This document shows positions 8,884 to 33,057 of a stretch of DNA of 64,000 bases, piece after piece. The stretch's first letter is position 1; every line of letters starts with the position of its first letter. The DNA comes from Bythopirellula goksoeyrii. Its GTDB lineage: Bacteria > Planctomycetota > Planctomycetia > Pirellulales > Lacipirellulaceae. The position numbers and the translations under genes were made by a program. Where the stretch lies: assembly GCF_008065115.1 (NCBI RefSeq), contig NZ_CP042913.1, positions 4,381,278 through 4,445,277 on the forward strand, written 5' to 3'. A model generated the notes under the pieces. That model worked only from the letters and a program-made list of their open reading frames with translations. It made no database searches and was not told where the DNA came from.

Positions 8884-8897
8884 GTCCACAATTGGTA
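8884..8897 (-). promoter_or_regulatory. Putative operator upstream of the GntR-type gene
   Basis: GTCCACAATTGGTA on the plus strand fits (T/G)ACCA-N4-TGGTA with a perfect right arm and a degenerate left arm. It sits 70 bp upstream of the regulator start and 95 bp from the matching site of the divergent operon. A possible minus-strand -10 (TATCTG) abuts it, but the -35 is weak. Likely autoregulation. Confidence 0.5.
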
Positions 8898-8981
8898 TAC
8901 TGACATACTAATCTAAAATCTCCTTTTAGGGAAATCAAGTAGAGGCATTTTTACATAACCAAGGAGAATTTAGGCTGTCGA

Positions 8982-9011
8982 TTGACAATAATACCAAAAA
9001 TGGTCTATAGT
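8982..9011 (+). promoter_or_regulatory. Sigma-70-like promoter with embedded palindromic operator
   Basis: -35 TTGACA (8982-8987), 18-base spacer, -10 TATAGT (9006-9011). The spacer contains TACCAAAAATGGTC (8992-9005), a copy of the TACCA-N4-TGGTA palindrome. The first codon of the DUF1559 gene is 53 bases further on. A protein bound here would block RNA polymerase, so repression is the simple reading. Confidence 0.7.
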
Positions 9012-9063
9012 ATCTATCTCTTCTGTTGCTCCCGTCAAGAATTGTGCAAGTATTACGCATCCA

Positions 9064-10101
9064 ATGCAGCCACAACATCTACAACCAAGGAAGTGCTTCA
9101 GGCAGCGAGTGGCAATATCCGCGGTGCCGACTTCAGCTTACTACCCTGACAGACGCCACTTGCGCGGGCCAGCTGCTACCGCTGGCTTCACCTTAGTCGA
9201 GTTGATGACTGTCATTGCGATTATTGGCGTACTGATTGCACTACTACTCCCGGCCGTTCAAGCAGCCCGGGAAGCCTCGCGACGGACTCAATGCACCAAC
9301 AATTTGAAGCAACTCTCGATTGGGCTTACCGCTTTTGAGGCGGCAAACGCCAAATTCCCGGCTGGGCAACGGTGGTCAGGCCCCCGATCGGATCCGGCAA
9401 GCTATGCGAGCGCATGGTCTGTGGCCTTACTCCCGCAAATAGAGCAACAGACGGTCGCCAATCTGTTCGACATGCGATTTCCCCAAAGTGCTCAGCGCAA
9501 TCTGCCTGCGACGAGTCAGGTTATTGGTCTCTACCTGTGCCCGAGTACCTCGCAGATCGAGTCGCATCGATCCGAGTCTGGTCACTTGATAAACTTGGGT
9601 GGTGTCCCGGGTGAGGGAATGGCTTGCATGGACTATCTCGGCATCTCCGGTCCTGACAAAGATGCTAAGAATCCATTGAACGGCGAGCTCTATGGCCGAC
9701 AGCGGGGCATCCTGATCGGTACCAAGGGCTTTCCCAATAGCGCTAAGCTCACCGATCCTCCTCCCATCCGAGCTAAGGACGTAACCGATGGTCTGTCGAA
9801 CACTACCTGGCTTACGGAGTGTACTGGGCGCGGTGCTGATGAAAAGCAAGGCATTGTCGATGCGATCCATGGCGCTTGGGCCTCTGGCAATAACGTCACT
9901 CATATCGACGGCGGCATTAACGATGACCCACTCCCACGGGCATGGCACAATGAGCGGATTCACTCGGACCACCCTGGTGGCGCCCAGTTCGCTATGTGCG
10001 ATGGTTCAATTCACTTTCTGTCTGACTCGACCAGTAAAAAAGTGATTCGCTCCCTCTGTTCTCGCAACGGCGAGGAGCTACTGTCCGAGGAAACTCTCTG
10101 A
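9064..10101 (+). CDS. DUF1559 pseudopilin-like protein
   Basis: A 345-residue member of the DUF1559 family that is greatly expanded in planctomycetes. Residues 41-75 form a type IV pilin-like N-terminus ([20 protein letters not shown]) preceded by an unusually long 41-residue basic leader with the Gly/Phe prepilin cleavage point. The end carries the family's H-P-G-G / DGS signature (HPGGAQFAMCDGSIHFL). Role unknown; probably an envelope or pseudopilus-like component processed by prepilin peptidase. It is the first gene after the operator-bearing promoter at 8982-9011 and precedes two sulfatase genes (155 bp to the next). Confidence 0.85.
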   Translation: MQPQHLQPRKCFRQRVAISAVPTSAYYPDRRHLRGPAATAGFTLVELMTVIAIIGVLIALLLPAVQAAREASRRTQCTNNLKQLSIGLTAFEAANAKFPAGQRWSGPRSDPASYASAWSVALLPQIEQQTVANLFDMRFPQSAQRNLPATSQVIGLYLCPSTSQIESHRSESGHLINLGGVPGEGMACMDYLGISGPDKDAKNPLNGELYGRQRGILIGTKGFPNSAKLTDPPPIRAKDVTDGLSNTTWLTECTGRGADEKQGIVDAIHGAWASGNNVTHIDGGINDDPLPRAWHNERIHSDHPGGAQFAMCDGSIHFLSDSTSKKVIRSLCSRNGEELLSEETL

Positions 10102-10256
10102 AGACTGGTCGGCAGTTGCAATCATGAGGTGAGGCCTCAGTGCGGCAGAATCAGGCTAGGAAAACTCGGTCAATTGCCACCGATGGTCGTTGACAAACCA
10201 CCATTCGAAAAGGCAAATGGATTATTGTCGCTGCGTGGTAAACCTTTTAGTGAAAA

Positions 10257-11687
10257 ATGAAGAAAGACCATGGCATGAAGAATTGGATGGACCGTAAGTA
10301 CATCGTCGCCCTGATGAGTTATTTGGGTGTCATGATTTGCCAAGTTTCCGTTGAAGCTAAGCCGTTGAATGTGCTTTTCATTGTGATTGATGATTTGCGC
10401 CCGGAGCTAGGTTGCTACGGCAATGATTCCATGGTCACGCCAAATATTGATCGACTGGCGACGAAAGGTGTGAAGTTTAACCACGCCTATTGTCAGTATC
10501 CGGTCTGCAATCCCAGCCGCTCCTCGTTTTTGACCGGCAAGCGTCCAGATGAGCTCGGAATCGTTTCCAACCGAGTATCATTGCGCAAAGAGTGGCCGAA
10601 CATCATCACGTTGCCGCAACTGTTCCGTAAGAACGGATATTTCACTGCTGGGCTGGGAAAACTTTTCCACCAGGGACTGGATGACAACGGCAGTCAAACC
10701 CTATTTCGCGGCGCGGCATCTTTTGACTTTTCTTACAAGGCATTGGGGAATAGCCCGAAAATTGGAAAGAAGGGCGAAGGACGCAAAGCGGGTGATGGCA
10801 GCATACCCTGGTGTAAGTGGCTGGCCGCCGAGGGAGGCGACGAGGCACAACCCGACGGTATGCTCGCTGCCGAAGCGGTGCGCGTTCTTGAAGAACATCA
10901 CGACCAACCTTTTTTCATTGGTGTTGGGTTCCATAAACCTCATGATCCCTTTATTGCTCCGAAGGAGTATTTCGATCTCTATCCGCTCGATAAAGTCAAG
11001 TTGGCCCAGGATCCAGAGGATCGCATCCCTCTGTTAAAACATGCCCTTCCAAAGAGTTACGATTTCTCGAAGTTCACCGACCAAGATTGCCGTGAAATTA
11101 AACGAGCCTACCAGGCATGTACCAGTTTCTCGGATGCGCAAGTGGGCAAATTGTTTGAAGCGATGGACCGGCTGGAGCTGTGGGACAGCACGATTGTTCT
11201 GCTCCTGGGCGATCATGGATACCATCTAGGGGAACATGGCTGGTGGAACAAGGTGACCGTCTTCGAACTCGGAGCGCGAGGCCCCATGGTCATGTGGGTG
11301 CCCTGTGCCGAGAAGATGGGCCAAGAGACCGATTCCGTCGTGGAGTTTCTGGATATCTACCCGACGTTCGTGGACTACTGCGGGCTCAAGGCACCGCACA
11401 AGCTTTCGGGAAAGAGCCTGCGTCCGGTGTTGGAGAACCCTTCCAGCACTTGGGACAAAGCGGCCTATACGCAAGTTGTGCGAGGGGGAGTTGGGATGGG
11501 CTATAGCGTTCGCGTTGGCCCGTGGCGTTTCACACAATGGGGCAATGATGGCGAGGGGGGCATTGAACTCTATGATCACTCCAAGGATCAGCTAGAGTAT
11601 TACAATCTGGCGGACCAACCCGAATACAGCAAACTTCGCAAGCGCCTCGCCACATTGTTGAAGAAGGGTTTCCCCGTTTTGAACTGA
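10257..11687 (+). CDS. Secreted sulfatase (iduronate-2-sulfatase-like, family S1)
   Basis: A 476-residue formylglycine sulfatase. The N-terminal hydrophobic stretch (about 15-35) is a signal peptide; the metal-binding start FIVIDDLRPELGCYGN follows, then the modification motif CNPSRSSFLTGKRP with the Cys at residue 84 to be converted to formylglycine. HKPHDPF and LLGDHGYHLGEHGWWNK carry further active-site residues. It removes sulfate esters from glycans, probably in the periplasm. An in-frame ATG at 10275 is an alternative start. It is placed between the DUF1559 gene and a second sulfatase, 42 bp upstream of the latter's ATG, so a single transcript from the operator-bearing promoter is likely. 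Confidence 0.92.
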   Translation: MKKDHGMKNWMDRKYIVALMSYLGVMICQVSVEAKPLNVLFIVIDDLRPELGCYGNDSMVTPNIDRLATKGVKFNHAYCQYPVCNPSRSSFLTGKRPDELGIVSNRVSLRKEWPNIITLPQLFRKNGYFTAGLGKLFHQGLDDNGSQTLFRGAASFDFSYKALGNSPKIGKKGEGRKAGDGSIPWCKWLAAEGGDEAQPDGMLAAEAVRVLEEHHDQPFFIGVGFHKPHDPFIAPKEYFDLYPLDKVKLAQDPEDRIPLLKHALPKSYDFSKFTDQDCREIKRAYQACTSFSDAQVGKLFEAMDRLELWDSTIVLLLGDHGYHLGEHGWWNKVTVFELGARGPMVMWVPCAEKMGQETDSVVEFLDIYPTFVDYCGLKAPHKLSGKSLRPVLENPSSTWDKAAYTQVVRGGVGMGYSVRVGPWRFTQWGNDGEGGIELYDHSKDQLEYYNLADQPEYSKLRKRLATLLKKGFPVLN

Positions 11688-11729
11688 AACGCTGACTTAG
11701 ACCCAATTAAGACTCGGTATGGATTGTCG

Positions 11730-13511
11730 ATGAATAGGTCCCAGTTTAATCTGACGTTGCTTCTTGTTGTCTTTTCCGCACTCGCTTCGTGCCTCTGCCG
11801 AGCCTCTCTGAGTGCAGAAGTCTGTCGGCCCAATGTCGTACTTGTGATGACAGATGACCAGAGCTTTACAGACTTTGGTGTGAATGGCAACGAAGCTATC
11901 CTAACGCCCCATATCGACTTGCTTGCTGAGCAGAGTACATCATTCTCTCAGTTCTACGTCAGCCCCGTGTGTTCCGCGACCCGAGCCAGCCTGATGACAG
12001 GACGCTACAACTACCGAACTCGAGTCGTCGATACTTGGCTGGGGCGTTCGATGCTAGAACCCTCAGAGTTCACGCTTGCAGAGTCACTTTCCAAGGGGGG
12101 ATATGCCACAGGAATTTTTGGCAAGTGGCATCTCGGCGACTGCTATCCCATGCGACCTACTGATCAGGGTTTTCAAGAAGTTTTGGTTCATCGTGGAGGA
12201 GGGCTAGCCCAGCCTTCCGACCCCTTGAACAATCGACGTCGATACACCGATCCGGTTTTGATTCACAACGGCGAGACGGTACAAACTCAGGGCTACTGCA
12301 CAGATGTGTACTTCCGCGCCGCGGAGCAATTCATTGATCTAACTGTCGCAGATGAAAAAAATTTCTTTGTGTACATTGCGCCTAACGCACCGCATGGACC
12401 ATACCACGATGTTCCGGAGCGACTCCGCGCGCAATACGTGACAGAAAGTGAACGACTACGCAGGTTACTGCCAGAAGATTCAGCGTCGGACGATCGCGTC
12501 GTTGATGATCTTACGCGAGTAGCTGCAATGATTACGAATATCGATGAAAATGTGGGCCAACTAAGGCGATTCCTAGAATCTAAGGGTCTGAACCAGAACA
12601 CTCTTTTCCTATTTCTTTGCGATAATGGGCCAACGCCGCGCCGCTTTACCGGCAAGCACCGAGGAATGAAATGTGAGGTACGTGAAGGAGGGATCCGCTC
12701 GCCTCTTTGGGTTAGCTGGCCTGCCAGAATAAAGTCAAACGGTAAACACGACGAAATCGCCGCACATATCGATCTGATGCCAACCATACTGGAGGCATGT
12801 GGCATTGAGCCGGATCCAAACATTCAACTCGACGGCCGCAGCTTGATGCCGCTGCTTCAGAACGCCGAAGTCGATTGGCCTGATCGAGAGATAGTCATTC
12901 AGGCTCACCGCGGCGGCGAGCCTCAACGACATCATAATTTCATGATTCGAAATCAGCAATGGAAGCTAGTGCATCCCAGCGGTTTCCATCTCGAAAGATT
13001 TGAGGGCACGCCTCAATTTGAACTTTATGAAACAGCTACCGATCCTGGCGAAATGCGAAACCTAGCCGAACAACATCCCGAGGTCGTCGACCGACTTCGA
13101 GCGGCTTACGACCGATGGTTTGACGACGTCTCGGCAACTCGCCCCAACAACTACGCTCCGCCCCGAATTCACGTCGGAACTGAGTTCGAAAAGGAGACGG
13201 TGCTGACGCGAAACGATTGGCAGGGAGAAAACTGGTCGAGTGAGACCGTTGGCCACTGGCAGGTGCAAATCGCCCGAGGTGGTAATTATCGGGTGGTCGT
13301 GCATTTCGAGCAGCTCGGTGACGAAGTCACTATCGAAATCGGCGACGTTCATCGTACATTATCTTCAAATGGCCAAATGTCCGTGGCGTTCGATGAGATC
13401 CAACTCTCTCCGGGAGAGTGCTCGGTGTCTGCGTGGGCAAGCGGACCGGGACGTTGGGGAGCCTACCAGATTTTCTTATCTCGTGCTGCAGAAATTCATC
13501 CCACTCCCTAA
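11730..13511 (+). CDS. Secreted arylsulfatase-like sulfatase with C-terminal beta domain
   Basis: The ORF opens at a TTG (11724), but ATG at 11730 gives a cleaner signal peptide (MNRSQFNLTLLLVVF, ending near ASLSAE). The 593-residue protein has NVVLVMTDDQSFTDFG, the modification motif CSATRASLMTGRYNYRT with Cys at residue 81 (Ala/Thr in place of the commoner Pro/Ser), GIFGKWHLGD and FLCDNGPTPRRF, all sulfatase landmarks. About 110 residues after residue 480 form an extra beta-sandwich, as in some S1 subfamilies. Third gene of the plus-strand unit 9064-13511; it converges with the GH99-like gene, 45 bp away. Confidence 0.9.
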   Translation: MNRSQFNLTLLLVVFSALASCLCRASLSAEVCRPNVVLVMTDDQSFTDFGVNGNEAILTPHIDLLAEQSTSFSQFYVSPVCSATRASLMTGRYNYRTRVVDTWLGRSMLEPSEFTLAESLSKGGYATGIFGKWHLGDCYPMRPTDQGFQEVLVHRGGGLAQPSDPLNNRRRYTDPVLIHNGETVQTQGYCTDVYFRAAEQFIDLTVADEKNFFVYIAPNAPHGPYHDVPERLRAQYVTESERLRRLLPEDSASDDRVVDDLTRVAAMITNIDENVGQLRRFLESKGLNQNTLFLFLCDNGPTPRRFTGKHRGMKCEVREGGIRSPLWVSWPARIKSNGKHDEIAAHIDLMPTILEACGIEPDPNIQLDGRSLMPLLQNAEVDWPDREIVIQAHRGGEPQRHHNFMIRNQQWKLVHPSGFHLERFEGTPQFELYETATDPGEMRNLAEQHPEVVDRLRAAYDRWFDDVSATRPNNYAPPRIHVGTEFEKETVLTRNDWQGENWSSETVGHWQVQIARGGNYRVVVHFEQLGDEVTIEIGDVHRTLSSNGQMSVAFDEIQLSPGECSVSAWASGPGRWGAYQIFLSRAAEIHPTP

Positions 13512-13556
13512 CTGCGAGTCGTGTCGCAAAGTAATCGCCGTGAGTCGGTAGAGTTG

Positions 13557-16500
13557 CTAGAGATCGAGAAATTCTCCAGGTAATTCTTCCAGAGAATCCA
13601 AGAATCCGTTCGACTCTTCGTAAGATGAAAAAGCTTCGTCATAGGTCCTTAACTTGAACTCGACTTTTTCCGCATCATTTGGCACAGCATTGCGAGCTAG
13701 TAAGCGGAGCGTTTGGTCGTTGATCGTTGCAACTGTTGGAGATTCGGTCTCTGGGCTAAGGTAATGTGGTTCGACGTTTGGCTGGTTATTCTTGGTCCAC
13801 AGGACCATGCCTGCGTCTCTCGCCACGATCTGCTCTGCCACATCTGAGGCATCCGTCGCACGAATTGGTTCAGGGACCGCACTCGCAGAAAGACTATCTG
13901 GCTGCTCAACCGTTATTGGCGGCGGGAGCATGGCCCCAAAATTTCGTTGCCATACCAAGAAATCAGCCCCATCGACAAATCCATTTCCATTGCCATCTGC
14001 ACCTGATCCAGGGGGAGTAGTAGTTCCGTAGGAGTCCGACCATTTGGTCAAATCATCCCCATCGACGACTGCATCCTGATCGTAGTCGCCGGTCAAAGCG
14101 GGAACTCCGACCAAGCCGAACTCCGTCGTTTCAAGGTATGCCCCGGCGTTGCCACGTCCATCAATTGGCGTAATGCGAATCTGATAGGTGCCCGATACCA
14201 GGCCACTAGTATCCCAAGTAGTTTCGTCAGACCACGTACTCGCTCCTGCCCCAGTGTCATAGCCACTTTGGGATGCTGGGCTCGCATATTCGTAAACCAG
14301 ACCTACAGAATTCCATGACAAACCACCGTCGTTGGTCCATTCGATTTGAATGTGATTATCCTCTTGCACGGTCCATTGGTCCATCAAGCCGCTTCTCCAA
14401 TCGTCAGTCATTGACCAAGCGACTCTGACGGTGTTCTGTGGCGAATTGATCGTGGCCGAGGCCATTTCCAACTCCGGTGCTGCCAAGTCACCAAACGCGT
14501 GCAGTAGCCGTACCTGATCAATCGGGATGTGATTGCCTGTGATCCGGATATCCGCTCCGCCGTTCTGGCGATTTCCAAAGAATGCGTCGTCCAAATAGAA
14601 CCGGGCGGTACGCCACTCGCCGCTGTCCTCAAGCGAAATCGGGCTGGCCACTTTATAGGCCGCAATTGTCGAATCGTATTGAATGTTAAGGTTTCCAGAA
14701 CCAACGTCTTGATAGACCACTTCGACAATGGCGTTCAATCCCGCATGAACCTGGTTGGCAAAGTTGTCGTCAACTCGCAAATACATGTACAGCGATAAAG
14801 GCGTCCCGGTGAGTTGCCTAACGCTGCGACCGCCGACGTCTGTGGCCAAGGTCTGACCGTCGCCGGCGAACTCGAATTGTTGTAAGCCGTTTACGGTATT
14901 CGAGGATCCTAGATCGACATCCACCGACAACATGCTCTCCTTGATTACTCGAACGCGGCGAACGAACAGATTTCCGCCAATCTTCTCCAGCAGAAAATCA
15001 GCTCCTCCGTTTTGATTGTTGCCGAAGTAGGCGTCGGAAAGTTGGAAGCGGTGGGTTCGCCACTGACCACTACCAGTTAGTACGGCGGGTTCGGTTGCCT
15101 TTTGGGAGTCGGTCGTGGAGTCGTATTTAGCATTGAATTGTCCTGGACCTGAATCGAGATACTCGACCTCAATAGTAACGTCGCGACCGTTGGTATCTTG
15201 CAGCAAGAAGCTATCGTCTACCTGAAAGTACAAGCGATTGTCTAAGGAGTAGATCGCGTCGAAAGACTTTCCATCAACGGAGAAAGTAGTAGTTTGAATT
15301 TGGCCATCGGGATTATCGATGGCTGCAAGTCGATCACTGCCGGAACCCTGCCAAACGGCCTCCCCACCGACGTTCGAACGATTTTCAAGTTCGGACTCGG
15401 TAGGAATAGTATCGTTAATCGAAACCTTTTTTTGCAGGGCCTGCTTGGCTGCTCCGGTCAGCGCCATCCACCAATCGTTGGGCATCGGGTCGCTCACCTG
15501 GTAGGTCAACGGGTTTCCACCCGAATCCATGTCCGGCGCAGGTGGATCGTCGCTGGCAGGGATGAGGTTGGTCCCTTCGTCATACTCATCGAACATGCCG
15601 ATGAAGTACCAGGGGGCGTCGGTCTCATTGGCGGCGTCGCTGATCATCCGCCAATAAAAGTTTCCATCTTCGCGATCGCGTGAGGTAGCAGTACTACTGT
15701 TCTGCAGGTGAGTCCAAGAGAATCCCGGGAACACGTGAGGGACGTGTTGTGTTACACCGTTCAGTCTTGTTTCGTCGGAGGAGTAAGAGTTTCCACCCTT
15801 CCAATATCCTTGCCAGGGGATATAAGCATCGTGGAGGCCGGCGTTTGCGATTTGTGATCCTGATTCAGTATGTCTGCCCGCTCCGACGACGTACACTCCC
15901 CGCGAATGGAAATAGTTAATCAGGTCGGTCTGTTGCGCAGTGGAATAACTGTTGCCGCTGCTAACATAGAGGCCAAAAATTGTCACGACTGGCATGCCAT
16001 TCTCACGCTGATAGTGCGAGTCGTTGAGCATGTCGAACCCATCTGGGTCGGTTAAGTATTCCCAGTCGTCTTTGACCTGTTGAATTACAACGTCACGTTG
16101 AGAGGTTGTGCCACCGTTCTGAATGTCGTACTCGATTGCCCATGTGCGTCCTTCGCGATGAGCTGCATCGCGAGCGTTTACCACTGGCCATTGCGGCTCG
16201 CCAATATAGGATCCGTCAGGTTGCTTATACATGAACGATCCACGAAACCGTTGCACCAAAACACCGTCGATGTCGTGCTCGCGCATCCACTGAAAGTGGC
16301 GATTAACGACCGATGAATTGGCCGAGGAGAACAAGTAGGCTTGTTCTCCGCTAGCAGTAGCTACCCCCGGCACAGGAAAGAGTTCGCTCTGATCGTAGTC
16401 GTTCGCATCGGGCCACTGCTCAATGGACCAGTCGCCTGGGTGCCCCCAATGGACATACCCTTCGTCCGCGGCATCGTTGGGTGTGTTAAACCACCCCTGA

Positions 16501-17111
16501 TAGCCGGCGAGGACTTTTCCGGTAAGCGTCGACGCATCCACCTCTCGGCTTGGCCCCGCGTAAGGTGCCTCCCAAGGGGGGGACCAAACCCATTCCAGGC
16601 CGCTGTCCGGGAAGGGTTGGTCGGACAACTCTACCGTCGAAATCGGAGCGCCGCTGGTGTTCACGCGAAAATCGTGACCATTGCCTCCGTTTGCGAACTG
16701 GACGTTCTCCAGTAAGTGGTAAGAACTGACAAACTGCTGTGTGTCGATGCGGCTTGAACGAGTATGGAATTCTGTATCGTCAAAGTTGTCGGTAAGACTG
16801 TCGTACTCAACCTTGAGCTTTCCCGAACCTTCGTCGAAGTAGTTGACCTTCAGGTACATCGAGTCGCCCACTTGGAAACCGGGAAAAGCTGCCGGGCTCG
16901 TGTTGTAATAGAGGTAGGCGGGACCAACATGAACGTTGACACCATCTCGCTGCCCGGCGACCCATGTTCCGTCACCACTATTGGAGGAGGGCGCATTGAA
17001 GGTCACGGTTGTGAGTAATAGCCGGTCTTCAAGCTTCTCGAAAGTTGTCCTGCGATCAGCTAAACTAGGCGGGCTTTTACATTTGGACCTCTCACGCGAG
17101 TTCTCGCCCAT
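13557..17111 (-). CDS. Large secreted GH99/GH71-like protein with beta-sandwich repeats and dockerin-like motif
   Basis: A 1184-residue protein with the planctomycete LEPR-type N-terminus (FEKLEDRLLLT). Residues about 190-545 (GKVLAGYQGWFNTPND, FQWMREHDIDGVLVQRF, VPHVFPGFSWTHL) match the GH99/GH71-like domain often annotated as xylosidase in Bacteroidetes. A domain marked by YxDxGxGxLxxxYDS occurs three times: once before the catalytic region and twice after it (about 560-720 and 725-870), the latter two with FGNxQNGGAD. An Ig/FN3-like region and a dockerin-like pair follow (GDYDQDAVVDGDD; GNGNGFVDGADFLVWQR). There is no PEP-CTERM tail; it ends in an acidic segment. The homologous catalytic domain is fused to a sulfatase at 27348-29987. 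A promoter with the shared palindrome lies at 17160-17187. Confidence 0.8.
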   Translation of the reverse strand: MGENSRERSKCKSPPSLADRRTTFEKLEDRLLLTTVTFNAPSSNSGDGTWVAGQRDGVNVHVGPAYLYYNTSPAAFPGFQVGDSMYLKVNYFDEGSGKLKVEYDSLTDNFDDTEFHTRSSRIDTQQFVSSYHLLENVQFANGGNGHDFRVNTSGAPISTVELSDQPFPDSGLEWVWSPPWEAPYAGPSREVDASTLTGKVLAGYQGWFNTPNDAADEGYVHWGHPGDWSIEQWPDANDYDQSELFPVPGVATASGEQAYLFSSANSSVVNRHFQWMREHDIDGVLVQRFRGSFMYKQPDGSYIGEPQWPVVNARDAAHREGRTWAIEYDIQNGGTTSQRDVVIQQVKDDWEYLTDPDGFDMLNDSHYQRENGMPVVTIFGLYVSSGNSYSTAQQTDLINYFHSRGVYVVGAGRHTESGSQIANAGLHDAYIPWQGYWKGGNSYSSDETRLNGVTQHVPHVFPGFSWTHLQNSSTATSRDREDGNFYWRMISDAANETDAPWYFIGMFDEYDEGTNLIPASDDPPAPDMDSGGNPLTYQVSDPMPNDWWMALTGAAKQALQKKVSINDTIPTESELENRSNVGGEAVWQGSGSDRLAAIDNPDGQIQTTTFSVDGKSFDAIYSLDNRLYFQVDDSFLLQDTNGRDVTIEVEYLDSGPGQFNAKYDSTTDSQKATEPAVLTGSGQWRTHRFQLSDAYFGNNQNGGADFLLEKIGGNLFVRRVRVIKESMLSVDVDLGSSNTVNGLQQFEFAGDGQTLATDVGGRSVRQLTGTPLSLYMYLRVDDNFANQVHAGLNAIVEVVYQDVGSGNLNIQYDSTIAAYKVASPISLEDSGEWRTARFYLDDAFFGNRQNGGADIRITGNHIPIDQVRLLHAFGDLAAPELEMASATINSPQNTVRVAWSMTDDWRSGLMDQWTVQEDNHIQIEWTNDGGLSWNSVGLVYEYASPASQSGYDTGAGASTWSDETTWDTSGLVSGTYQIRITPIDGRGNAGAYLETTEFGLVGVPALTGDYDQDAVVDGDDLTKWSDSYGTTTPPGSGADGNGNGFVDGADFLVWQRNFGAMLPPPITVEQPDSLSASAVPEPIRATDASDVAEQIVARDAGMVLWTKNNQPNVEPHYLSPETESPTVATINDQTLRLLARNAVPNDAEKVEFKLRTYDEAFSSYEESNGFLDSLEELPGEFLDL

Positions 17112-17159
17112 TCTCTCTCCAATCTAGATCTAGTAGTCGACAAGTAGCCAGCAGACTAG

Positions 17160-17187
17160 ATTATACCAAAATTGGTACTCCATGGAA
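17160..17187 (-). promoter_or_regulatory. Minus-strand promoter with operator for the GH99-like gene
   Basis: The perfect palindrome TACCAAAATTGGTA (17164-17177) overlaps a consensus minus-strand -10, TATAAT (complement of 17160-17165). A -35 at the same 16-base spacing would be TTCCAT, a poor match. Start of translation is about 50 bases downstream. The operator/-10 overlap of two bases is the same as at 23081, 30197 and 32552. Confidence 0.65.
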
Positions 17188-17253
17188 GTTTTTGGCGATT
17201 TTTTTATGGGAAAATTGCAAAAACAACCCTAACTAGATCTTAATGTCTAAAGC

Positions 17254-17281
17254 TTGCTAAATATACCAATACTGGTACACT
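17254..17281 (+). promoter_or_regulatory. Plus-strand promoter with operator for the CotH gene cluster
   Basis: -35 TTGCTA (17254-17259), 16-base spacer, -10 TACACT (17276-17281). The palindrome TACCAATACTGGTA (17264-17277) fills the spacer and overlaps the -10 by two bases, the same geometry as the other sites. Translation of the CotH-domain gene begins about 253 bases downstream. Confidence 0.68.
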
Positions 17282-17534: not shown

Positions 17535-20500
17535 ATGGGTCTACGAAATAGGAAATTGGTCTTCGAAACCCTTGAGTCTCGGGAGATGCTTGCGGCAAAC
17601 CCTATCATCACCGAATTCATGGCGTCCAACAGCAATACGCTGGAAGATGGTGATGGCGCAACGCCCGATTGGATTGAGATCTATAACAAGGGAGATCAGG
17701 CCCTCGATCTCGCCGGGTATCGGTTAACCGACAACGCTACTGATACCAACAAATGGGTGTTTCCCAGCAACGTGCTTGGATCGGGTGACTTTCTGACCGT
17801 TTTTGCATCGGGAAACAATACACCTGATTCGGCAGGCAATTTTCATACAAACTTTTCCCTTTCGGCCGATGGCGAGTATTTGGCCCTCATCGATCCGTTT
17901 GGTAGTGTCGTTTCCGAGTTTGGCATGAATGGAATCGATTACCCAGCACAGATTTCAGATGTGTCTTATGGCTTGGCGATGGATACTACTCTCACCAACG
18001 CGGTCACCCCCGACAGTAGTGCTCGATACCTGATTCCATCCAATAGCGCTGTCGATTCAATTTGGATGGACCCTAGTTTCAACGACTTGAGTTGGCAGAT
18101 TGGAACAGCAAGTATTGGCTACGAGAATTCGCCTGCAGACTATGCGGGTCTTATCCAAACTTCGGTGCCCCAGGGGACAGCTTCCGTCTACGTGCGGATG
18201 TCTTTTGCGGTTCCCGACACAGATACCATCTTGGACAAGCTGCAGATGAAGTATGACGATGGGTTCATCGCATACATCAATGGCTTTCGAGTCGCTAGTG
18301 CAAATGCACCTGCCTTGGGAGCATACAACTCCGTCGCCACCGGCGATCACCCGGATGGGCTGGCGGTGGATTACGTCAACTTTGATCTAAGCCAATATTC
18401 TTCAACACTGAATGTCGGAGCCAATACGCTCGCTATCCACATGCTCAATACGAGTAGCGGCAGCTCAGACCTGCTTTCGGTCTCCAACCTGGTTCTCACC
18501 TCGGGCGGCGTGATCGAGCCAGTGGTGATAGGCAGTTTGGCCTCGCCGACACCCAATCTGCCGAATACCAATTTACGTGCTTCCGATGTTCAATTTTCAA
18601 GAGCGGGAGGGATTTTTGTAAACTCGTTCCAACTTAATATGACTGCCGCGCCCAATGAATCGATCCGCTACACCACCGATGGTACGAACCCCGACATCAA
18701 TTCACCGCTCTATACCGGAGCCTTTACGGTAAATTCGACCCAACAGATTCGAGCTCGCGCGTATGGCCCCGTGGGACAAGTTGGCAATAATAAAACCGAA
18801 ACCTTCGTCAAGGCCTCCTCGTCGGTAGGTAGTGTGACCTCGGATCTCCCGATCATCGTCCTGGAAAACTTGAACCGGGGAATCCCCGACCGAGAATTTC
18901 AGGACTCCACTCTGGCCTTGTATGAAGTCGATCCGAATACCGGACTAAGTTCCTTGGCAGCACCCGCCGATCTCACTTCCGTCATCGGCCAACATCGACG
19001 TGGAAAAAGCACCTTCGGCCAGCCGAAGTTAAATCTGCGAATCGAATTGCGCGACAACTTTGGTGAGGACCAGAGCGAATCGCTGCTTGGCATGCCTTCC
19101 GAGTCGGATTGGATTCTCTACGCACCATGGACCATTGATCGAACCATGGTGCGACACGCCTTAATCTACGATCTGAGTCGTCAGACCGGCACCTGGGCTC
19201 CGCGCACTCGATATGTCGATGTTTATTCCAACTACGATGGTGGTCAACTCACGGATAATGACTATGTGGGCACCTACGTTTTGATGGAGGTCATCAAGCG
19301 AGATTCTAATCGCGTTGACATCTCTGAGCTTACTCCCACACAAAACTCCGCGCCGGACATCAGTGGCGGCTACATTCTTCAGGTTGATGAACCCGAGCCG
19401 GATGACGCTAGTTGGGATTCCGCACGAAATTATCCTTCGGGGAACAGTCAATTCATCCATGTCGAACCAGAACGAATCGACATGACACAGGCCCAAGTCG
19501 ACTATATACGCAATTATATTGACGATTTTGAAGACGCACTTTTCGGCCCCAATTCCACAGATCCAAATCTAGGCTATCAAGCCTATTTTGACGCCGAAGC
19601 TGCCATTGATTTCCATCTGTTCAATGCTTTTTCAGGCAATCCCGACGCGTGGCGATTGAGCACTTATCTGACGAAGGACCGAGGCGGTAAGCTGGCCTAT
19701 GGACCACTTTGGGATTTCGATCGTGCGATGGGCCCCGATGAAGATGATCGAACCGAGGATCCCACCAAATGGATGGTGGATGAAGCCTATTTCTGGGTTA
19801 CTCAGTATTGGAACAAGCTCTTTCAGGACGCCAACTTTGAGCAACGTTGGGTCGACCGCTGGCAAGAACTTCGTCAAACCGTTTTTAGCGATGCCAATCT
19901 CCGGGCCACGCTTCAAAGCCATACTGATCAACTTACCCAGGCCCAAGCTCGCAATGCCGCCAGATGGGGCAGCGGCATCGCGCCCAACGGAGGGCCTCTG
20001 GCCGACCCAGGCCTGACTGGCTGGGAAGGTGAGATTAGCCATCTCGAAAATTGGTTGGTCCAGCGAGCGAACTGGATCGATACTCAGACTATATCACCGC
20101 CTACGCTTGGTCCTGAACCTGGCAACGTAGCTGTCAATACTCACGTAACTCTCTCTGCGCCGGGTGCAAATATCTACTACACGCTCGATGGAAGCGATCC
20201 ACGGGCCGATGGCGGGGGGATTAAACCTGGAGCCATGCTTTACAACGGCTCCATTCCAATTAGCCAAACTACTGAAATAACCGCTAGAGCAAAAGGCTCG
20301 GGCGATTTCTTCGGTGGTTGGAGTGGTCTGGTGAAGGGGCTCTATTCCATCGAAGTCCCCGCGGATGCAACTAATCTACGTATTACGGAACTGCAATATC
20401 ACCCAGCAAATCCGACGCCTGCAGAGCTCGCCATGGCCCCAGGGATCGAGGACAACGATTTCGAGTTTGTCGAATTGCATAACATAAGCAACGACACGAT

Positions 20501-21344: not shown

Positions 21345-21482
21345 CTCGCTTGAGCAGAGGACTGATTAGCATTGGATCGAGGTTGCAAATAGCCTTGCGT
21401 TGCACAGATTTCCGAGTCATTGTTTGGCCTAGAGAAATTGGAGCTTTTTGCTGGAACTGAGAGACATTGCACCTACCTACAG

Positions 21483-22226: not shown

Positions 22227-22239
22227 ACTAGAAGTAAAT

Positions 22240-22932
22240 ATGAACGACGCATCGTTATCCCGTGCTGAAATAAATATAGAATACCTTGATGTTCCGTACT
22301 TCGACGACGATATCTTCAAGTTGCTCTTTCGATACTTGCTCAACTTCGTTGTGGTGACGGTAATCGTACGATTCGTTTACTACAAACATTCAAACAATAA
22401 AGACTGCCTATTCACCTTCTTCATGATCAACACGATGGTCTTCTTCATTTGCTTTACGCTAAAGAAGTTCGATCTGGGATTGGGGATGGCTTTGGGCCTT
22501 TTCGCAATCTTTGGCATCCTGAGATACCGTACCAGCACGATTCCCATCAAGGAAATGACTTATCTCTTCATGGTCATCGGAGTGGGTGTGGTCAACTCGC
22601 TTGCCAACAAGAAAATGAGCTATATGGAATTGGCATTTACCAACCTCACCGTCATGGGCTTGGCTGCTGTGTTGGAAAACATATCCTTATTCAAGAGTGA
22701 AATGCGAGAAACGATTGTTTATGAGAAGGTGGATCTCATCCGACCTGAGAATCACGCTGAGCTAGTGGCCGATCTTGAGAAGAGAACTGGTTTGAAACTA
22801 AGCCGCCTCGAATTGGGGGAAATAAACTTCTTGCGCGACACGGTTTCTATCGACCTGTATTATTATCCGCACGAACAAGCCCGACCACGGGAAGACTGTA
22901 TCGAAGTCACCATGAGAACCCCGAGAGAATAA
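22240..22932 (+). CDS. DUF4956 membrane protein
   Basis: About 230 residues. Four hydrophobic segments are visible (LNFVVVTVIVRFVYY, CLFTFFMINTMVFFICF, GLGMALGLFAIFGILRYR, TYLFMVIGVGVVNSL), followed by a cytoplasmic C-terminal domain of about 90 residues. This matches the DUF4956 family, which is repeatedly found next to VTC-domain and CotH genes. ATG at 22240 is preferred; a TTG at 22219 in frame would overlap the VTC stop codon. Possible role: membrane partner of the VTC protein. No biochemical function is known to me. Confidence 0.83.
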   Translation: MNDASLSRAEINIEYLDVPYFDDDIFKLLFRYLLNFVVVTVIVRFVYYKHSNNKDCLFTFFMINTMVFFICFTLKKFDLGLGMALGLFAIFGILRYRTSTIPIKEMTYLFMVIGVGVVNSLANKKMSYMELAFTNLTVMGLAAVLENISLFKSEMRETIVYEKVDLIRPENHAELVADLEKRTGLKLSRLELGEINFLRDTVSIDLYYYPHEQARPREDCIEVTMRTPRE

Positions 22933-23326
22933 CCCGAAACACAGGTGCTCAATGGCAATACAGACGGCTGTTTTTGTTGACATCTACACATGGTCCAAAC
23001 CTGGTGTAGTTCCAATTGAATGAAATTGCAGTCGAATCGGTAAAAATTGGCTATTTCCCTGAGAATCCCCCTGAAAAATATTGACAAGCAGACCAATATT
23101 GGTATAGTGGGACTTGTTCATTGCTTCTTCACTACTTATACATGTACTTTTCGACGAGATCCTGGGCTGACGGTTAGCTAGGAATATTAAGACTTTTCGT
23201 GCTGATTAGTTCGACGTGATTTGCCAAAAAATAGTCGACGTGCGAGGAATTCTGTAGTTGACGTAGCACTATTGGTTTAGTGTCAAACGAACTACTTTTT
23301 TACTTTTTTGCGAGGGAGATGAGCTC
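22933..23326. other. Intergenic leader region of the first PEP-CTERM gene
   Basis: It contains the operator-bearing promoter at 23081-23108 and then a leader of about 210 nt. Just before the ATG is a strong purine-rich ribosome binding site (GAGGGAGATG) preceded by two T-runs. The same TTTTTT...GAGGGAGATG block precedes the paralogous gene at 33058, so the leaders are homologous as well. Confidence 0.6.
23081..23108 (+). promoter_or_regulatory. Promoter with embedded operator, PEP-CTERM gene 1
   Basis: -35 TTGACA (23081-23086), 16-base spacer, -10 TATAGT (23103-23108). The spacer carries GACCAATATTGGTA (23091-23104), with a perfect 12-bp core palindrome ACCAATATTGGT. Strong consensus elements plus a palindrome between them point to a strong promoter under repression. 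Confidence 0.78.
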
Positions 23327-24226
23327 ATGAAAAGAGCAAGTTTATTGAGTTTAGTGGCCGTCTTGGTGATGGCTGGCCAATTGACCGCCGCAGACATTCG
23401 TTACCAGACGAGTGGCGACTGGTTTGCTACTGTGGCTGTAGATGGATTCGGCTGGCAGGCCCCCGGTCTGCCTGGCGTTAACGATAACGCCCGATTTAAT
23501 TGGGGCGGCAACACGGTTACGCTAGCCGGCGCTGCTCCAGATGTTAGGAGCCTTCAAATAGGCGTGGATGAGAGCGGTACACTGGAGGTCAATAACGGTG
23601 GAGTAATTTCCACCACCACCAGCACAGGAAATGGAGATGTGCTTGCTGGAAACAACAATGCCAACGCTACTGGCACGCTGACCGTTAACGATGGTGGAAC
23701 TGTGAATGTCGGCAGAATTCTGTGGGCGGCAAACAACAACTCTACCGGTTTTATCAATATCAACACTGGTGGAGTTGTTAACGTTGCGAGCCATCTGTGG
23801 TGGGGAGTTACTGGAACCGCTACCGTAAACATCAGTGGAACTCTCCAACAAAATGGTGGTATTCTCGGACTGGGCACGAGTAACGCTTCTACTGCCTCTG
23901 GCGGTACTGCCACAGTAAGTATTTTGGACGGCGGGCTTATGGCGCTGAACAATATTTCCGGAAATCCGGGTTTGCCCTCAATTCAGGCTGGATCGAGCAT
24001 AGATATTAGCGGCTCCGGTCAATTGACCCTTCCTGGTGATTTTGAGGGCCTGCTGAATGAGTACGCAAACGCAGGCAAGATTGTTGGTGATGGTGGATCG
24101 ACTGCACTGACGATCAACCAGACTAAGAACCCTGGCTTCACCACAGCTTACATCGTCCCAGAGCCTGCAACCTTGCTACTGCTGGGCCTAAGCCTTGGAG
24201 GAATCTTGATCAGCAAGCGCCGCTAA
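23327..24226 (+). CDS. PEP-CTERM surface protein with beta-repeat (paralogue 1)
   Basis: A 299-residue exported protein: signal peptide (LLSLVAVLVMAGQLTAAD), then a repetitive Gly/Asn/Thr-rich body of short beta repeats (NGGVISTT, DGGTVNVGRILW, TGGVVNVASHLWWGV, ISGTLQQNGGILGLG), and a C-terminal PEP-CTERM signal (VPEPATLLLLGLSLGG then KRR). The repeats suggest a right-handed beta-helix like autotransporter passengers or glycan-binding surface proteins. PEP-CTERM proteins are processed by exosortase, which is not in this window. Paralogue at 33058-34155 shares the whole body. It lies alone behind a strong operator-controlled promoter and before a clear terminator. Confidence 0.85.
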   Translation: MKRASLLSLVAVLVMAGQLTAADIRYQTSGDWFATVAVDGFGWQAPGLPGVNDNARFNWGGNTVTLAGAAPDVRSLQIGVDESGTLEVNNGGVISTTTSTGNGDVLAGNNNANATGTLTVNDGGTVNVGRILWAANNNSTGFININTGGVVNVASHLWWGVTGTATVNISGTLQQNGGILGLGTSNASTASGGTATVSILDGGLMALNNISGNPGLPSIQAGSSIDISGSGQLTLPGDFEGLLNEYANAGKIVGDGGSTALTINQTKNPGFTTAYIVPEPATLLLLGLSLGGILISKRR

Positions 24227-24313: not shown

Positions 24314-24470
24314 CTTCCTCAGCTTTCTCTGCGAGCAATTTCTGGCGAGTCAGCATGATTGATTCACTGGCTTATCAAGTGCACCTTACAACTAGCAGTC
24401 GTCGAATGAAGCTCCAGGAAAAGTTTCAGGTTACTGGCTGAATAATATTTGGCATAACGGAGTACACACC

Positions 24471-25556: not shown

Positions 25557-25784
25557 CTGGCGCTACCTAATTACAACCTTCGGCATAAGGATCGCATGTG
25601 TTTTCCTCCATCACCCGTCGTGATGCCCTCAAGAAATCTTCCTGGACTCTCCCGAGACAAACGCAATCCTAACACGGGATTATCGAGCCGAGTCTCTCTC
25701 GTCGACTGCCGATCGCGTCTAGAAATCTGCCCCAACAACCTTGAAATCATTCTGCTCCGACAGTAGCAGTGAATCTGGCAATAC

Positions 25785-27293: not shown

Positions 27294-27347
27294 GAGTGCA
27301 TTGACTTTCGACGAGTGTGCAGTTCTGAAAAAATGTCAAAGAGCAAT

Positions 27348-29987: not shown

Positions 29988-30296
29988 GAGTTTCTATTCC
30001 TTTGTTTTCCTGGAAGTATCCGTTCTTAGCTTTTACCGAATTCTCGCCATTTGATTAGCCCGCTCGCAGGTCTTGTCAGAAAGTGATGTGTATAATCAAA
30101 CCATCGGAAACAACACGCGTTCTTTCCCGAATCTGGGCGACAGCCCGACGAATGCCTGCGCCAATTTGGTGCTCTAGGAGAATTTCAAGCCAAACCTTGA
30201 CGGATAGACCAATATTGGTATAGTCAGGGTATCGGCTGTCTGGCTTCTTATCAAGTGGTTTCTGTGACCTAAGAACATACGAGAGATGGGGATTTT
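29988..30296. other. Divergent intergenic region, fusion gene / GH99 gene
   Basis: 309 bp. The only element I can support is the plus-strand promoter with operator at 30197-30224. The same palindrome might also govern the minus-strand fusion gene (about 220 bp from its start), but no clear minus-strand -10/-35 pair is seen. Confidence 0.5.
30197..30224 (+). promoter_or_regulatory. Promoter with embedded operator, GH99 gene
   Basis: -35 TTGACG (30197-30202), 16-base spacer, -10 TATAGT (30219-30224). The spacer holds GACCAATATTGGTA (30207-30220), identical to the site at 23091-23104 and followed in both by the same TATAGT. Translation starts 73 bases after the -10 at an ATG preceded by GAGAGATGGGGA. 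Confidence 0.78.
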
Positions 30297-32399
30297 ATGA
30301 TTCGATGCTTCCAAGGGACATTGCCCCTCTACCTGCTACTTGGGTTTACTGGAGTTTGCAGAGCGGATCCTACGGTCGGAGTCTATTACTACCCTTGGTG
30401 GGGGGCCGGTCAAGGTGGACATACTTTTGATCAGACACTGCGTGCCCATACAACGCCCAACACCCAACTGCCCGCGGTAGGGCCTCAATATAGTAGCCGA
30501 GACGCGAACGTAATTTCAGCGCACATCGACCAAAGCCACCTGGGCAACATCTCAATGTGGTCGATGAGTTGGTGGGGGCCGAATTCGTACGAGAATCAAA
30601 CCATCCGCAACAACATCCTTCCTCATCCCCGTGCGTCGGAACTCAGCTATACGATTCACTACGAGACGGGAGGCCGCCTAGGGAACCATAACAACCCGAA
30701 CTATTCAAACTTGATCCCTGATTTCCAGTATTTGGCAACAAATATCTTCAGTGATCCCAATTATATGCGGATCGACGGTCGCCCAGTCGTCGTAATGTAC
30801 CTGAGCCGTGTGTTCTTCGATGACGCCGCAGGAGCTACAGCCCTAAACAATATGCGTACGACGATGCAGAATCAGTATGGCTACGATCCCTACATCATTG
30901 GTGATCATCTCTTTAATTCCGTATCGAGTGGTGTAGCAAATATGGACGCGATAACTAGTTTCGATGTTTACGGACAGGTCTTCGGGGATGGTGTAGTTAA
31001 TCAAGCAAAAATTGATCAATTAGATCAAATCTATTCTTCAGCTAAAAATGTGGCCAACAACGCTGGGGTCGCCTTTGTTCCTGGTTTGGCACCAGGCTAC
31101 AACGACAAGGCCGTCAGACCTGGGCATCCCCCTGCCGCCCGGTATTTTCCGAGTGAACCATTTGGTAGTGCTATGGAAGCCATGCTTCAAGATGCAGTCC
31201 TGCCAAATACAGATGTGAATATCAACGATCTGATTTTAGTGAATTCGTTTAATGAATGGCACGAAGACACCCAGATCGAAGCAAGCGTAATAGGCCCTGC
31301 CACGAATACCGACGATACGCCCGGAGGAATGGAACTTACGGAAGGTAGATTCTATGAGGGCTATGGAAATAAATATCTTGATATTCTCCGCAACGCAACG
31401 CAAGCAGCGCCGACAACGCCAGCAGAAATTCGGTGGGGACGCGGTACCGCAACAGGTATGTTTGTCGGGAACTATACGGACCTGGCCAACTGGAATGCGG
31501 ATGACGTGACTCCAGACCCACCGCGTATCCCCGGTCCTAGTGACAGGGCACGAGTTGATCGGTCTGGCACGGACATGACGTTCAACTCAACGATCATCGC
31601 CAATGATTTCTTGTTTGGCGTCGACGAGGCCGGGCAGACGTTTAATCTTGAGGCAGGTGCGGATGTGACCCTCGCATCGAACCTCTTCGTCTCATTTAAT
31701 AGTGGCGATATTGGCTTCGATGTCCAGACAGGTGCCTCGCTCATTGTTGGTGGTAATTTCTTGCTCGGTCAACACGACGGCAAACAAAACGGCCAGCAGT
31801 TCATGAATGATGAAGATATCACGGTGACAATTGCTGGCATGGTCGACAACATTGGGGATGTCATTTTGGGTGATCGGTATGGGCTCCTTCCTGCCACGAC
31901 TTCAATGGATGTGGATGTCTTGCTCGACGTTACGACGGGAACCCTGCGCACGTCGGATATCAAATTCGCACCGAACGGAGACTTAAGCACCTATCTCGCC
32001 CCAGCGAACAGTAACACGATGGGAATTCAGATCGGCGACGACGGCCTGATCGTCATCGTCGGCTCGGACTCAACCGCCAAGATTAATAACTTGATTGCCG
32101 ATGGATTGCTCTATACGAACAGTGCAACTGGCACCATCCAAGTAAGTTACGACGGGACAGATACCTTGGTCCAAGTCGTGCTCGCGGGAGATTTCGACGG
32201 AGATGGTGATGTCGACGGGGCCGATTTTCAAATGTGGCAACGCAACCCTGGTGTGGGGAATTTAAGCGACTGGCAGAACAACTATGGCGTCACCGGAGCC
32301 CAAACTGCGCTGAATAGCGTTCCCGAGCCCACAACTCTGGTTCTTATGCTTGCCAGTGCTCTCATCCTGAGTGGATCTGACCGCCGTCAGAATATGTGA
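30297..32399 (+). CDS. Glycoside hydrolase family 99 endo-alpha-mannosidase/mannanase, PEP-CTERM anchored
   Basis: 700 residues. Signal peptide (LYLLLGFTGVCRADP), then a GH99 catalytic domain (about 25-370): VGVYYYPWW, ISMWSMSWWGPNSYE, VVMYLSRVF, and NSFNEWHEDTQIEAS with the ExxE pair E320/E323 that matches the catalytic Glu residues of characterised GH99 enzymes. GH99 enzymes cut internal alpha-mannosidic bonds (N-glycan or yeast-type mannan). The C-terminal half is a beta-repeat region like the PEP-CTERM paralogues (ARVDRSGTDMTFNSTIIAND), a dockerin-like motif (DGDGDVDGADFQMWQR) and a PEP-CTERM tail (VPEPTTLVLMLASALIL). Surface display is likely. It has its own operator-controlled promoter. 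Confidence 0.9.
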   Translation: MIRCFQGTLPLYLLLGFTGVCRADPTVGVYYYPWWGAGQGGHTFDQTLRAHTTPNTQLPAVGPQYSSRDANVISAHIDQSHLGNISMWSMSWWGPNSYENQTIRNNILPHPRASELSYTIHYETGGRLGNHNNPNYSNLIPDFQYLATNIFSDPNYMRIDGRPVVVMYLSRVFFDDAAGATALNNMRTTMQNQYGYDPYIIGDHLFNSVSSGVANMDAITSFDVYGQVFGDGVVNQAKIDQLDQIYSSAKNVANNAGVAFVPGLAPGYNDKAVRPGHPPAARYFPSEPFGSAMEAMLQDAVLPNTDVNINDLILVNSFNEWHEDTQIEASVIGPATNTDDTPGGMELTEGRFYEGYGNKYLDILRNATQAAPTTPAEIRWGRGTATGMFVGNYTDLANWNADDVTPDPPRIPGPSDRARVDRSGTDMTFNSTIIANDFLFGVDEAGQTFNLEAGADVTLASNLFVSFNSGDIGFDVQTGASLIVGGNFLLGQHDGKQNGQQFMNDEDITVTIAGMVDNIGDVILGDRYGLLPATTSMDVDVLLDVTTGTLRTSDIKFAPNGDLSTYLAPANSNTMGIQIGDDGLIVIVGSDSTAKINNLIADGLLYTNSATGTIQVSYDGTDTLVQVVLAGDFDGDGDVDGADFQMWQRNPGVGNLSDWQNNYGVTGAQTALNSVPEPTTLVLMLASALILSGSDRRQNM

Positions 32400-33057
32400 T
32401 CCCTCTCTTTGCTGAGAAAAGTAAGTATTTGCCTTGATTCTAAGTATATTTTGGAGGCTGTTGTGGACAGGAGGATGTTTTTGCCGTTCACCGGCTTCTC
32501 GAATCGAATGGAGCTACATCAGGAAATTTAGGAATTTCAATGGGCAAACGCTTGACACATAGACCAGATTTGGTATAGTCAGGACTGAACGCGGGGGTGG
32601 CACTAAATCCAGCCACTGAATTGACCGGGCTTTTCAGGTTATTCAAGAACTAGACACTTGGGCCATCGCATTCGCGAAAATGCCGGATCAGGCAATAAGA
32701 TTCTAAGAAGATTTCAGTTTTTATACGCAACTTAGTTCTTTGGAGTTGAACGAACTTACAGAGAGTTTACTAAATCGCGATTGGCTATCGGGGCAGATTA
32801 GCGAACGCGAAACGTGGCGAAGTAACGCCGGCCGACTTTGGCCTACGTCGCTTGCCATGGCTTTTCGAGAAGTAGAGGAGGTGCCAAGCCAATGTATGGC
32901 CGTGTTTTTCGCTTTCATGCGAAACTCCCAATCGTATCTTCACTTGGCGAAGCATTGACTTAGAGGTTTGATTGGGTTGTACGAAGGTAGTTGCAACGCA
33001 GCTAGCAGAAGTTGTGCGAAATAAGACGAATTACTTTTTTTTGAGGGAGATGCTTTG
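32400..33057. other. Long intergenic/leader region of PEP-CTERM gene 2
   Basis: 658 bp. The promoter with operator at 32552-32579 is followed by a leader of about 470 nt. An ORF at 32740-32958 has no recognisable domain or ribosome binding site and I do not call it. The last 30 bases (TTTTTTTTGAGGGAGATG) match the leader end of the paralogue at 23327. The length invites a search for an untranslated regulatory structure. Confidence 0.5.
32552..32579 (+). promoter_or_regulatory. Promoter with embedded operator, PEP-CTERM gene 2
   Basis: -35 TTGACA (32552-32557), 16-base spacer, -10 TATAGT (32574-32579). GACCAGATTTGGTA (32562-32575) occupies the spacer in the same register as at 23081 and 30197; its left half differs at two inner bases. 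The flank ATAGACCA and the TATAGTCAGG downstream are also shared with 30197, so these promoters are related by descent. Confidence 0.75.

Follow-up and report, generated by a model that had tools for sequence, protein, structure and literature searches.

Seven related palindromes of the form TACCA-N4-TGGTA lie upstream of genes in a single polysaccharide-related block of Bythopirellula goksoeyrii, within the 64,000-nucleotide stretch analyzed here (the window, G000:C1:4381278-4445277, from a host genome of 6.47 Mb in a single contig). We consider it likely, with a probability of about 0.8, that the GntR/LacI-type protein at 7738..8814 (minus strand, 358 aa, gene gntR) uses these palindromes as its operators; as a sugar-responsive repressor, it would control both the block and its own operon through half-sites that face outward. 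A local regulon with this protein as its regulator is supported because a motif built from other genomes recovers the sites, the motif accompanies gntR in all seven genomes that carry the gene, and the exact promoter-operator cassette is confined to gntR loci.

All seven 14-mers proposed by a sequence-only reading of this DNA were found (8884-8897, 8992-9005, 17164-17177, 17264-17277, 23091-23104, 30207-30220, and 32562-32575). The loose pattern alone is little proof, because many of its places must be chance: TACCAN4TGGTA with up to two mismatches matches the window 36 times, whereas 100 dinucleotide shuffles gave 16.4 matches on average and 26 at most. Genome-wide, GACCAN4TGGTATA with two mismatches gave 289 matches compared with 303 for the reversed control, and since such scans are swamped by chance, a footprinting position weight matrix (PWM) and a cassette pattern were adopted. 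The PWM was trained on 17 sites of five genomes (G017, G009, G030, G015, and G035) and none from the source genome (G000) or its near twin (G004), the training sites having been chosen with the pattern of the sequence-only reading itself. It recovers six of the seven sites as ranks 1-6 in the window (17164, 30207, 23091, 8992, 17264, and 32562, at 23.5-17.9 bits), and six window sites reach 14 bits, whereas 30 shuffled windows averaged 0.30 such sites and never had more than one. The seventh, 8884, is rank 8 at 9.6 bits, and its weak form, similar to TACCAA-N2-TTGGAC, is kept upstream of gntR in G000, G004, G017, and G009. Consistent with the earlier remark that no site was noticed between 33 and 64 kb, the PWM maximum there is 8.4 bits; the maxima in the two 20-kb flanks of the window are 11.2 and 11.9 bits.

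Conservation points in the same direction. Among 59 genomes searched for orthologues, the source genome included, a gntR orthologue of at least 52% identity occurs in seven, the six others being 98-52% identical (98% in Bythopirellula polymerisocia Pla144), and the motif is present at the orthologue locus in 7/7 carriers, which is the co-occurrence that the proposed regulon calls for. Gene order is rearranged among the carriers, and the operators still precede gntR, the GH99 protein, PEP-CTERM-type proteins, and the symporter; in G009, it is the weak form that stands nearest to gntR, with the strong sites 4-10 kb away. A larger genome group supplied 296 members of the order, in which the cassette TTGACN5KACCAN4TGGTAYA was scanned; all 15 exact matches are at gntR loci (three each in G000, G004, and G009; two each in G015, G017, and G035). 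With one mismatch there are 14 more, two at gntR loci (G000 and G004) and 12 elsewhere. The sequence KACCAWWWHTGGTM occurs at nine places in the source genome, six in the window and the other three in open frames. The 19 off-locus motif places that were read are part of all off-locus matches (the three KACCAWWWHTGGTM places and one exact GACCAN4TGGTATA in G000, and 15 in other genomes), and 17 of them lie inside an open frame of at least 120 codons, L092 and L103 being the exceptions. This confinement of the exact cassette to gntR loci argues against the view that the palindromes merely reflect promoter sequence (TTGACA, TATAAT, and an AT-rich spacer) or chance, as does the left ACCA, which neither promoter box covers and which, a single half-site base apart, does not vary among the 17 training sites. 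We regard that view as hardly credible, even though the right half of the palindrome overlaps the -10 box, the best site in the 30 shuffled windows reaches 20.0 bits, and genome-wide the loose pattern does not exceed its control.

The regulator itself is a member of the GntR family, with an N-terminal winged helix-turn-helix (HTH; Pfam GntR, 48.1 bits, cut-off 27) and PDB matches to YvoA, PdhR, AraR, and FadR. It is followed by a GalR/LacI-type C-terminus (Peripla_BP_3, 52.4 bits, cut-off 26.5), for which profile A1 matches chains of LacI, CcpA, and PurR. This is the architecture of the AraR subfamily, but the proposed sites are ACCA-N4-TGGT and not the inward NyGTNxACNy of that subfamily, and the protein is therefore termed AraR-like for its architecture, without being classed as an AraR. 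It does not belong to the LacI family, as Pfam gives an N-terminal GntR domain and no LacI HTH, the LacI-type match being C-terminal. The recognition helix, GVSRVTLRKAL, carries Arg28 and Arg38. A second GntR/LacI-type paralogue in the source genome (L060, G000:C1:4832974-4834005), 33% identical to the 7738-8814 protein, has its own operator TAGCATTTATGCTA in a TTGCAC-16-TATATT promoter, and this paralogue and 12 relatives (clade 2) all have TAGCR-N4-YGCTA upstream, on the same 5+4+5 plan. A wider role for clade 2 was considered and rejected, as TAGCRN4YGCTATNNT is no commoner than its reversed control; it has two matches in the source genome, one of them the paralogue's own promoter. At HTH position 38, clade 1 has Arg (SRVTLRKAL, once SRATLRKAL) where clade 2 has Tyr (SYMTARRAV), and this contrast was therefore followed across the wider family.

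Searches of the relatives, the family, the order, and the phylum yielded 76 proteins, of which 71 have the HTH pattern; the five without it (L174, L176, L182, L184, and L198) were omitted from the code counts. Not entered were L143 (5 bp upstream), L179 (match from position 65), the distant L124-L128, and the weaker matches L163-L167, L180, and L181, and duplicates were skipped. For each regulator, the best outward palindrome with a spacer of 3 or 4 within 330 bp upstream was chosen by a score blind to bases 2 and 3 of the half-site T-K-n-T-A, and the threshold of 7.0 was set after the scores were seen. At this threshold, 49/71 regulators have a site, compared with a mean of 5.75 and a maximum of 10 in shuffled upstreams; at 7.4 and 7.8, the counts are 41/71 and 28/71 compared with 1.9 and 0.3. 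Amongst the half-sites of these 49, base n is G in 32/34 with Arg38, C in 44/50 with Tyr38, and T in 14/14 with His38, and base K is G in 72/80 with Arg28 (A in 7, T in 1) and T in 18/18 with Met, Thr, or Glu at position 28. Clustering at 50% identity gave 31 clusters, 23 with a site; counted per cluster, n fits residue 38 in 19/23 (permutation p < 1e-5) and K fits residue 28 in 18/23 (p = 0.008). Residue 38 changes at least eight times among the 49 in a quick tree of the effector domains. Thirty genes were fetched after the rule had been written, 20 of them with a site and 17/20 fitting n, a partly dependent test in that some are close to earlier proteins, and Glu28 and Tyr38-Leu39 fall outside the written rule. 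The pattern TAACAN4TGTTATA occurs in G640, G717, and G718 solely upstream of the His38 regulators L196, L193, and L195, from whose promoters it was taken, and its reversed control occurs nowhere there. Weak homologues at 24 loci (18 + 6) include two with the HTH pattern, and three without it (L204, L211, and L216) scored 7.0-7.2; the last two genome searches for further family members added none.

The covariation of operator and recognition helix across 23 divergent clusters is what ties the palindromes to the GntR protein rather than to another factor. A LacI, TetR, or AraC/XylR protein binding the palindromes, with gntR as a neighbor under its control, might be proposed from the misfit of ACCA-N4-TGGT to the GntR consensus NyGTNxACNy, as given in the published outline of the family (PMC4494728); besides the covariation, the two other regulators recognized in the window (45472 and 53367) are without counterparts in the 60-80 kb surrounding the orthologues of other genomes, a 33% XylR homologue in G009 being the one exception, although no search for other regulators was made there. 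We judge such a factor to be very improbable.

Several features of the operators touch on the code without belonging to it. Top operators with a 3-bp spacer were found for L149, L146, L139, L136, L151, L158, L172, L162, L177, L178, and L183, and all eight code-fitting sites of proteins without Arg28 have this spacer. Tandem operators are present upstream of L195, L196, and L139, where adjacent half-sites also pair inward (e.g., TGTTATATAACA), an arrangement that could allow cooperative binding. The contig G640:C1 has 16 regulator-family matches at E ≤ 1e-25, several with different operator letters upstream.

GntR operators are described as inward (TKGT..ACMA) or direct repeats with few other exceptions in the portion of PMC4494728 that treats them, and no publication on this operator or on outward GntR sites was found in titles and abstract starts, subscription papers and supplements being outside the search; the terms 'GntR' and 'everted repeat' together likewise gave no result in titles and abstract starts. 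Upstream of the 71 genes, perfect-type outward palindromes with a gap of 3 or 4 occur in 7 and 13 genes, compared with 0.8 and 0.6 in shuffles, and inward palindromes with gaps of 0-4 occur in 0, 0, 2, 0, and 0 genes, compared with 0.4, 0, 0.6, 0.2, and 0.6. An inward partner at HutC spacing beside the sites was found in 3 and 2 of the 49 (at least three of four bases), no commoner than background. In NagR, as outlined in PMC4333415, Arg at HTH 28 reads G-5 and Arg at HTH 38 reads G-4, with the HTH positions mapped here by alignment. In the present family, position 4 goes with residue 28 and position 5 with residue 38. Counted from the dyad, this is the opposite of the NagR order, and an outward turn of the half-site TKnTA would produce just that; the operator may thus be understood as the usual GntR half-site in outward orientation.

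A different account would leave the domains in the ordinary inward orientation on these same sites, with only the base contacts to the opposite strand being new. The GG pair of the N4 sites is indeed at dyad distances 4 and 5, as in the NagR operator in its published description, though on the opposite strand from the NagR pair, and yet Arg at HTH 38 of NagR, FadR, and AraR reads the position-4 equivalent, so far as their descriptions extend, whereas here position 5 varies with residue 38 and position 4 with residue 28. We consider this inward account unlikely.

Comparison with characterized regulators, within the extent of the published descriptions available for each, gives the same mixture of likeness and difference. 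AraR of Bacillus subtilis also joins a GntR HTH (4egy, with which the HTH of the 7738-8814 protein aligns) to a GalR/LacI domain and controls sugar genes through palindromic operators (PMC4218819), but its half-sites are inward (operator ATACATACGTACAAAT) and its residue 28 is Asn, unlike the outward half-sites and Arg28 found here, and the block in the window holds GH38, GH99-type, and sulfatase genes. NagR/YvoA of the HutC subfamily similarly reads consecutive G's of TGGT through Args at HTH 28 and 38 (PMC4333415), but its operator GTGGTCTAGACCAC is inward and its effector domain has the chorismate-lyase fold in place of the LacI type. NanR, NagQ, and GabR have half-sites nearly the same as TGGTATA (TGGTATAW, TGGTATT, and ATACCA; PMC4494728), but these are direct repeats belonging to other GntR subfamilies and not outward palindromes. 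A correlation of HTH 28 with the TKGT/ACMA base, Arg going with G/C, is on record for the FadR, HutC, and YtrA subfamilies (Suvorova et al., 2015, PMC4494728), to judge from the portion of that study concerned; AraR-type proteins are outside the three subfamilies analyzed, and in contrast to that study residue 38 varies here (Arg, Tyr, or His) together with n, at outward sites.

Several results weigh against the proposed regulon and its code. The 12 one-mismatch cassettes away from gntR loci equal the reversed control (12) and occur once each in 11 genomes without an orthologue and once in G000, and G030 has an orthologue and two operators upstream of gntR with no exact cassette. Amongst the paralogues, 22/71 have no site of at least 7.0, and two distant proteins with the right residues also lack one. 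The residue-38 rule is missed by 4/23 clusters, represented by L146, L157, L173, and L197; the first has Tyr38-Val39 and base A, and for the other three the top palindrome may be a wrong pick. Independent pairs drawn from the tree number one to two on starred branches, too few for a sign test, with 0.8-1.9 pairs on average changing in the same way and 0.0 on average in the other way, although some pairings depart from this zero. At a distance of 2 nt outside the left half, 7/49 sites have an inward partner (at least three of four bases) compared with a random expectation of about 6%, a mild excess that is probably due to TATA flanks.

The operators overlap the -35/-10 region before several co-localized genes, with the promoters read by consensus only, and this reading bears out the claim that six palindromes fill the spacer and five overlap the -10 box. 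At 23081..23108, 30197..30224, and 32552..32579 (all plus strand), exact cassettes are located before the PEP-CTERM gene at 23327 (TTGAC..GACCAATATTGGTATAGT, 20.7 bits), the GH99-PEP-CTERM gene at 30297 (TTGAC..GACCAATATTGGTATAGT, 20.7 bits), and the gene at 33055 (TTGAC..GACCAGATTTGGTATAGT, 17.9 bits), with TTGACA or TTGACG, a 16-bp spacer, and TATAGT starting in the last two bases of the palindromes at 23091, 30207, and 32562. The usual geometry across the carriers is the same, with TTGAC(A/G) or TTGC, a 16-bp spacer, and a -10 box from the last TA of the palindrome. The operator TACCAAAAATGGTC at 8992..9005 (plus strand, 20.0 bits) lies between gntR on the minus strand and a DUF1559 gene on the plus strand, within TTGACA-18-TATAGT on the plus strand, and with an extended -10 TGGTATTAT on the minus strand. 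The operator TACCAAAATTGGTA at 17164..17177 (minus strand, 23.5 bits) is located 53 bp from the start of the GH99-domain gene at 13557-17111 (minus strand) and fits a promoter on that strand with TATAAT and a weak -35, and TACCAATACTGGTA at 17264..17277 (plus strand, 18.8 bits) is in the TTGCTA-16-TACACT promoter of the CotH-VTC-DUF4956 genes. The weak operator GTCCACAATTGGTA (minus strand: TACCAATTGTGGAC) at 8884..8897 (minus strand, 9.6 bits) is located 70 bp from the gntR start and has no convincing -35. An extra half-site, TTGGTCTA, is present at 8870-8877 (minus strand), 12 bp from the inner half of this weak operator, and is kept as TTGGTCTA in G000, G004, and G009 and as ATGGTCTA in G017; it resembles the additional boxes described in section 17 of PMC4494728, as far as that section goes.

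A half-site TKnTA followed by TA often forms TGnTATAnT, which is, by consensus, an extended -10 element when K is G. The base after the gene-facing half is T in 43/49 and the next is A in 37/49, both favored by the score, so that the score, which rewards a flanking TA, itself accounts in part for the TATA that follows the half-site; the sixth -10 base, which the score does not favor, is T in 27/49. In the proposed mechanism, a dimer would bind TACCA-N4-TGGTA, mostly between the -35 and -10 boxes, and the gene-facing TGGTA plus TA would double as the extended -10 (TGnTATAnT). Repressor and RNA polymerase would then compete, because the same bases form the half-site and the extended -10, and the repressor would come off when its LacI-type domain binds an oligosaccharide. 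Each DNA-binding domain would read 5'-T-K-n-T-A, residue 28 reading K and residue 38 reading n, with half-sites facing outward, unlike the mutually facing ones of FadR, NagR, and AraR, and the relatives in the phylum would use the same sign with n and K altered according to residues 38 and 28. Judging from operator position, the 7738-8814 protein should be a repressor, and its LacI-type domain suggests that it should respond to a sugar. The letter n of the extended -10 TGnTATA is the one base there that sigma is not known to read, and paralogous repressors could therefore diverge at n without spoiling the promoter; Arg28 paralogues do differ at this letter. On balance, we find it probable that a GntR/LacI chimeric repressor family in several Planctomycetota lineages uses an outward T-K-n-T-A that doubles as an extended -10 when K is G, residue 38 setting n and residue 28 setting K.

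The block encodes, by Pfam annotation, a sodium:solute symporter (1284..3272, minus strand), an endonuclease/phosphatase-type protein, a GH38 alpha-mannosidase (4485..7649, minus strand), the GntR regulator, DUF1559 proteins, four sulfatases, GH99-type proteins, a CotH/VTC/DUF4956 cluster, and PEP-CTERM proteins. The GH38 gene is downstream of gntR in the same direction and adjoins gntR in G004, G017, and G009 as well, and a symporter homologue is close to gntR in 6/6 other carrier genomes (tblastn). A DUF1559 protein and two sulfatases (9064..13511, plus strand) are downstream of operator 8992. The large protein at 13557..17111 (minus strand) has a GH99 match of 33.5 bits (cut-off 33), and the CotH/VTC/DUF4956 cluster spans 17535..22932 (plus strand). 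A PEP-CTERM protein is encoded at 23327..24226 and a protein with a PEP-CTERM-like tail, read directly and without a Pfam match, at 33055..34155 (both plus strand); homologues of these two and of 13557..17111 are each present at the locus in 5/6 other carrier genomes. The GH99 protein at 30297..32399 (plus strand, 75.2 bits) has a PEP-CTERM-like C-terminus, also read directly, which suggests that the glycosidase is sorted or anchored. An alpha-mannan-type substrate and inducer is our guess from the annotated GH38 and GH99 domains, and a sulfated substrate from the sulfatases. The sulfatase at 27348-29987 (minus strand), residues 26-365, is extended by a second module, in which residues 756-862 match GH99 weakly (26.6 bits, under the cut-off), and G009, G017, and G030 have a place that matches this second module alone (tblastn). 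Six DUF1559 (SBP_bac_10) proteins are spread across the window (9064-10101, 34341-38281, 41846-42928, and 62034-63092), each with an N-terminal methylation motif, and three of them are close together.

The origin of the sites is a separate matter. The suggestion that the regulon was built by copying a promoter-operator cassette finds some backing for at most two pairs with similar flanks and none for the others, which show short matches at most. The 30207/32562 pair is alike for 17-20 bp outward from the -35, with CAGG after the -10, and the 17164/17264 pair for about 31 bp outward from the -10 (both core-anchored, with the best score reached in 0/500 shuffles, among 30 comparisons, so that each pair is borderline after correction). 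A short box, AGGAGAATTT, upstream of the -35 is common to 8992 and 30207, with a gapped form at 32562. Local alignment of the flanks gave p < 0.05 in 8/42 comparisons, three of which are facing sites (8992/8884 and 17164/17264). Local copying of some window operators, which would be compatible with their role as operators of the GntR protein, is accordingly a tentative proposal, set against the little flank likeness of the remaining pairs and the same geometry with other flanks in G009, G015, G017, and G035.

Planctomycetes degrade complex, often sulfated polysaccharides, and few of the gene blocks in this group have, to our knowledge, an assigned regulator. If the proposed code is correct, the protein sequence of a regulator would by itself suffice to predict the operators of its polysaccharide locus, and a rule of two residues and two bases would let regulons be read from genome sequence. 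For the window itself, the outward reading predicts strong binding of the 7738-8814 protein to TACCAAATTTGGTA, and not to the inward TGGT-N4-ACCA, TAGCAAATTTGCTA, or TAACAAATTTGTTA. The outward arrangement would add a further dimer geometry to a large family described so far, within the published accounts cited above, with inward and direct-repeat sites, and the overlap with the extended -10 would offer a simple account of how operators may diversify without damage to the promoter.

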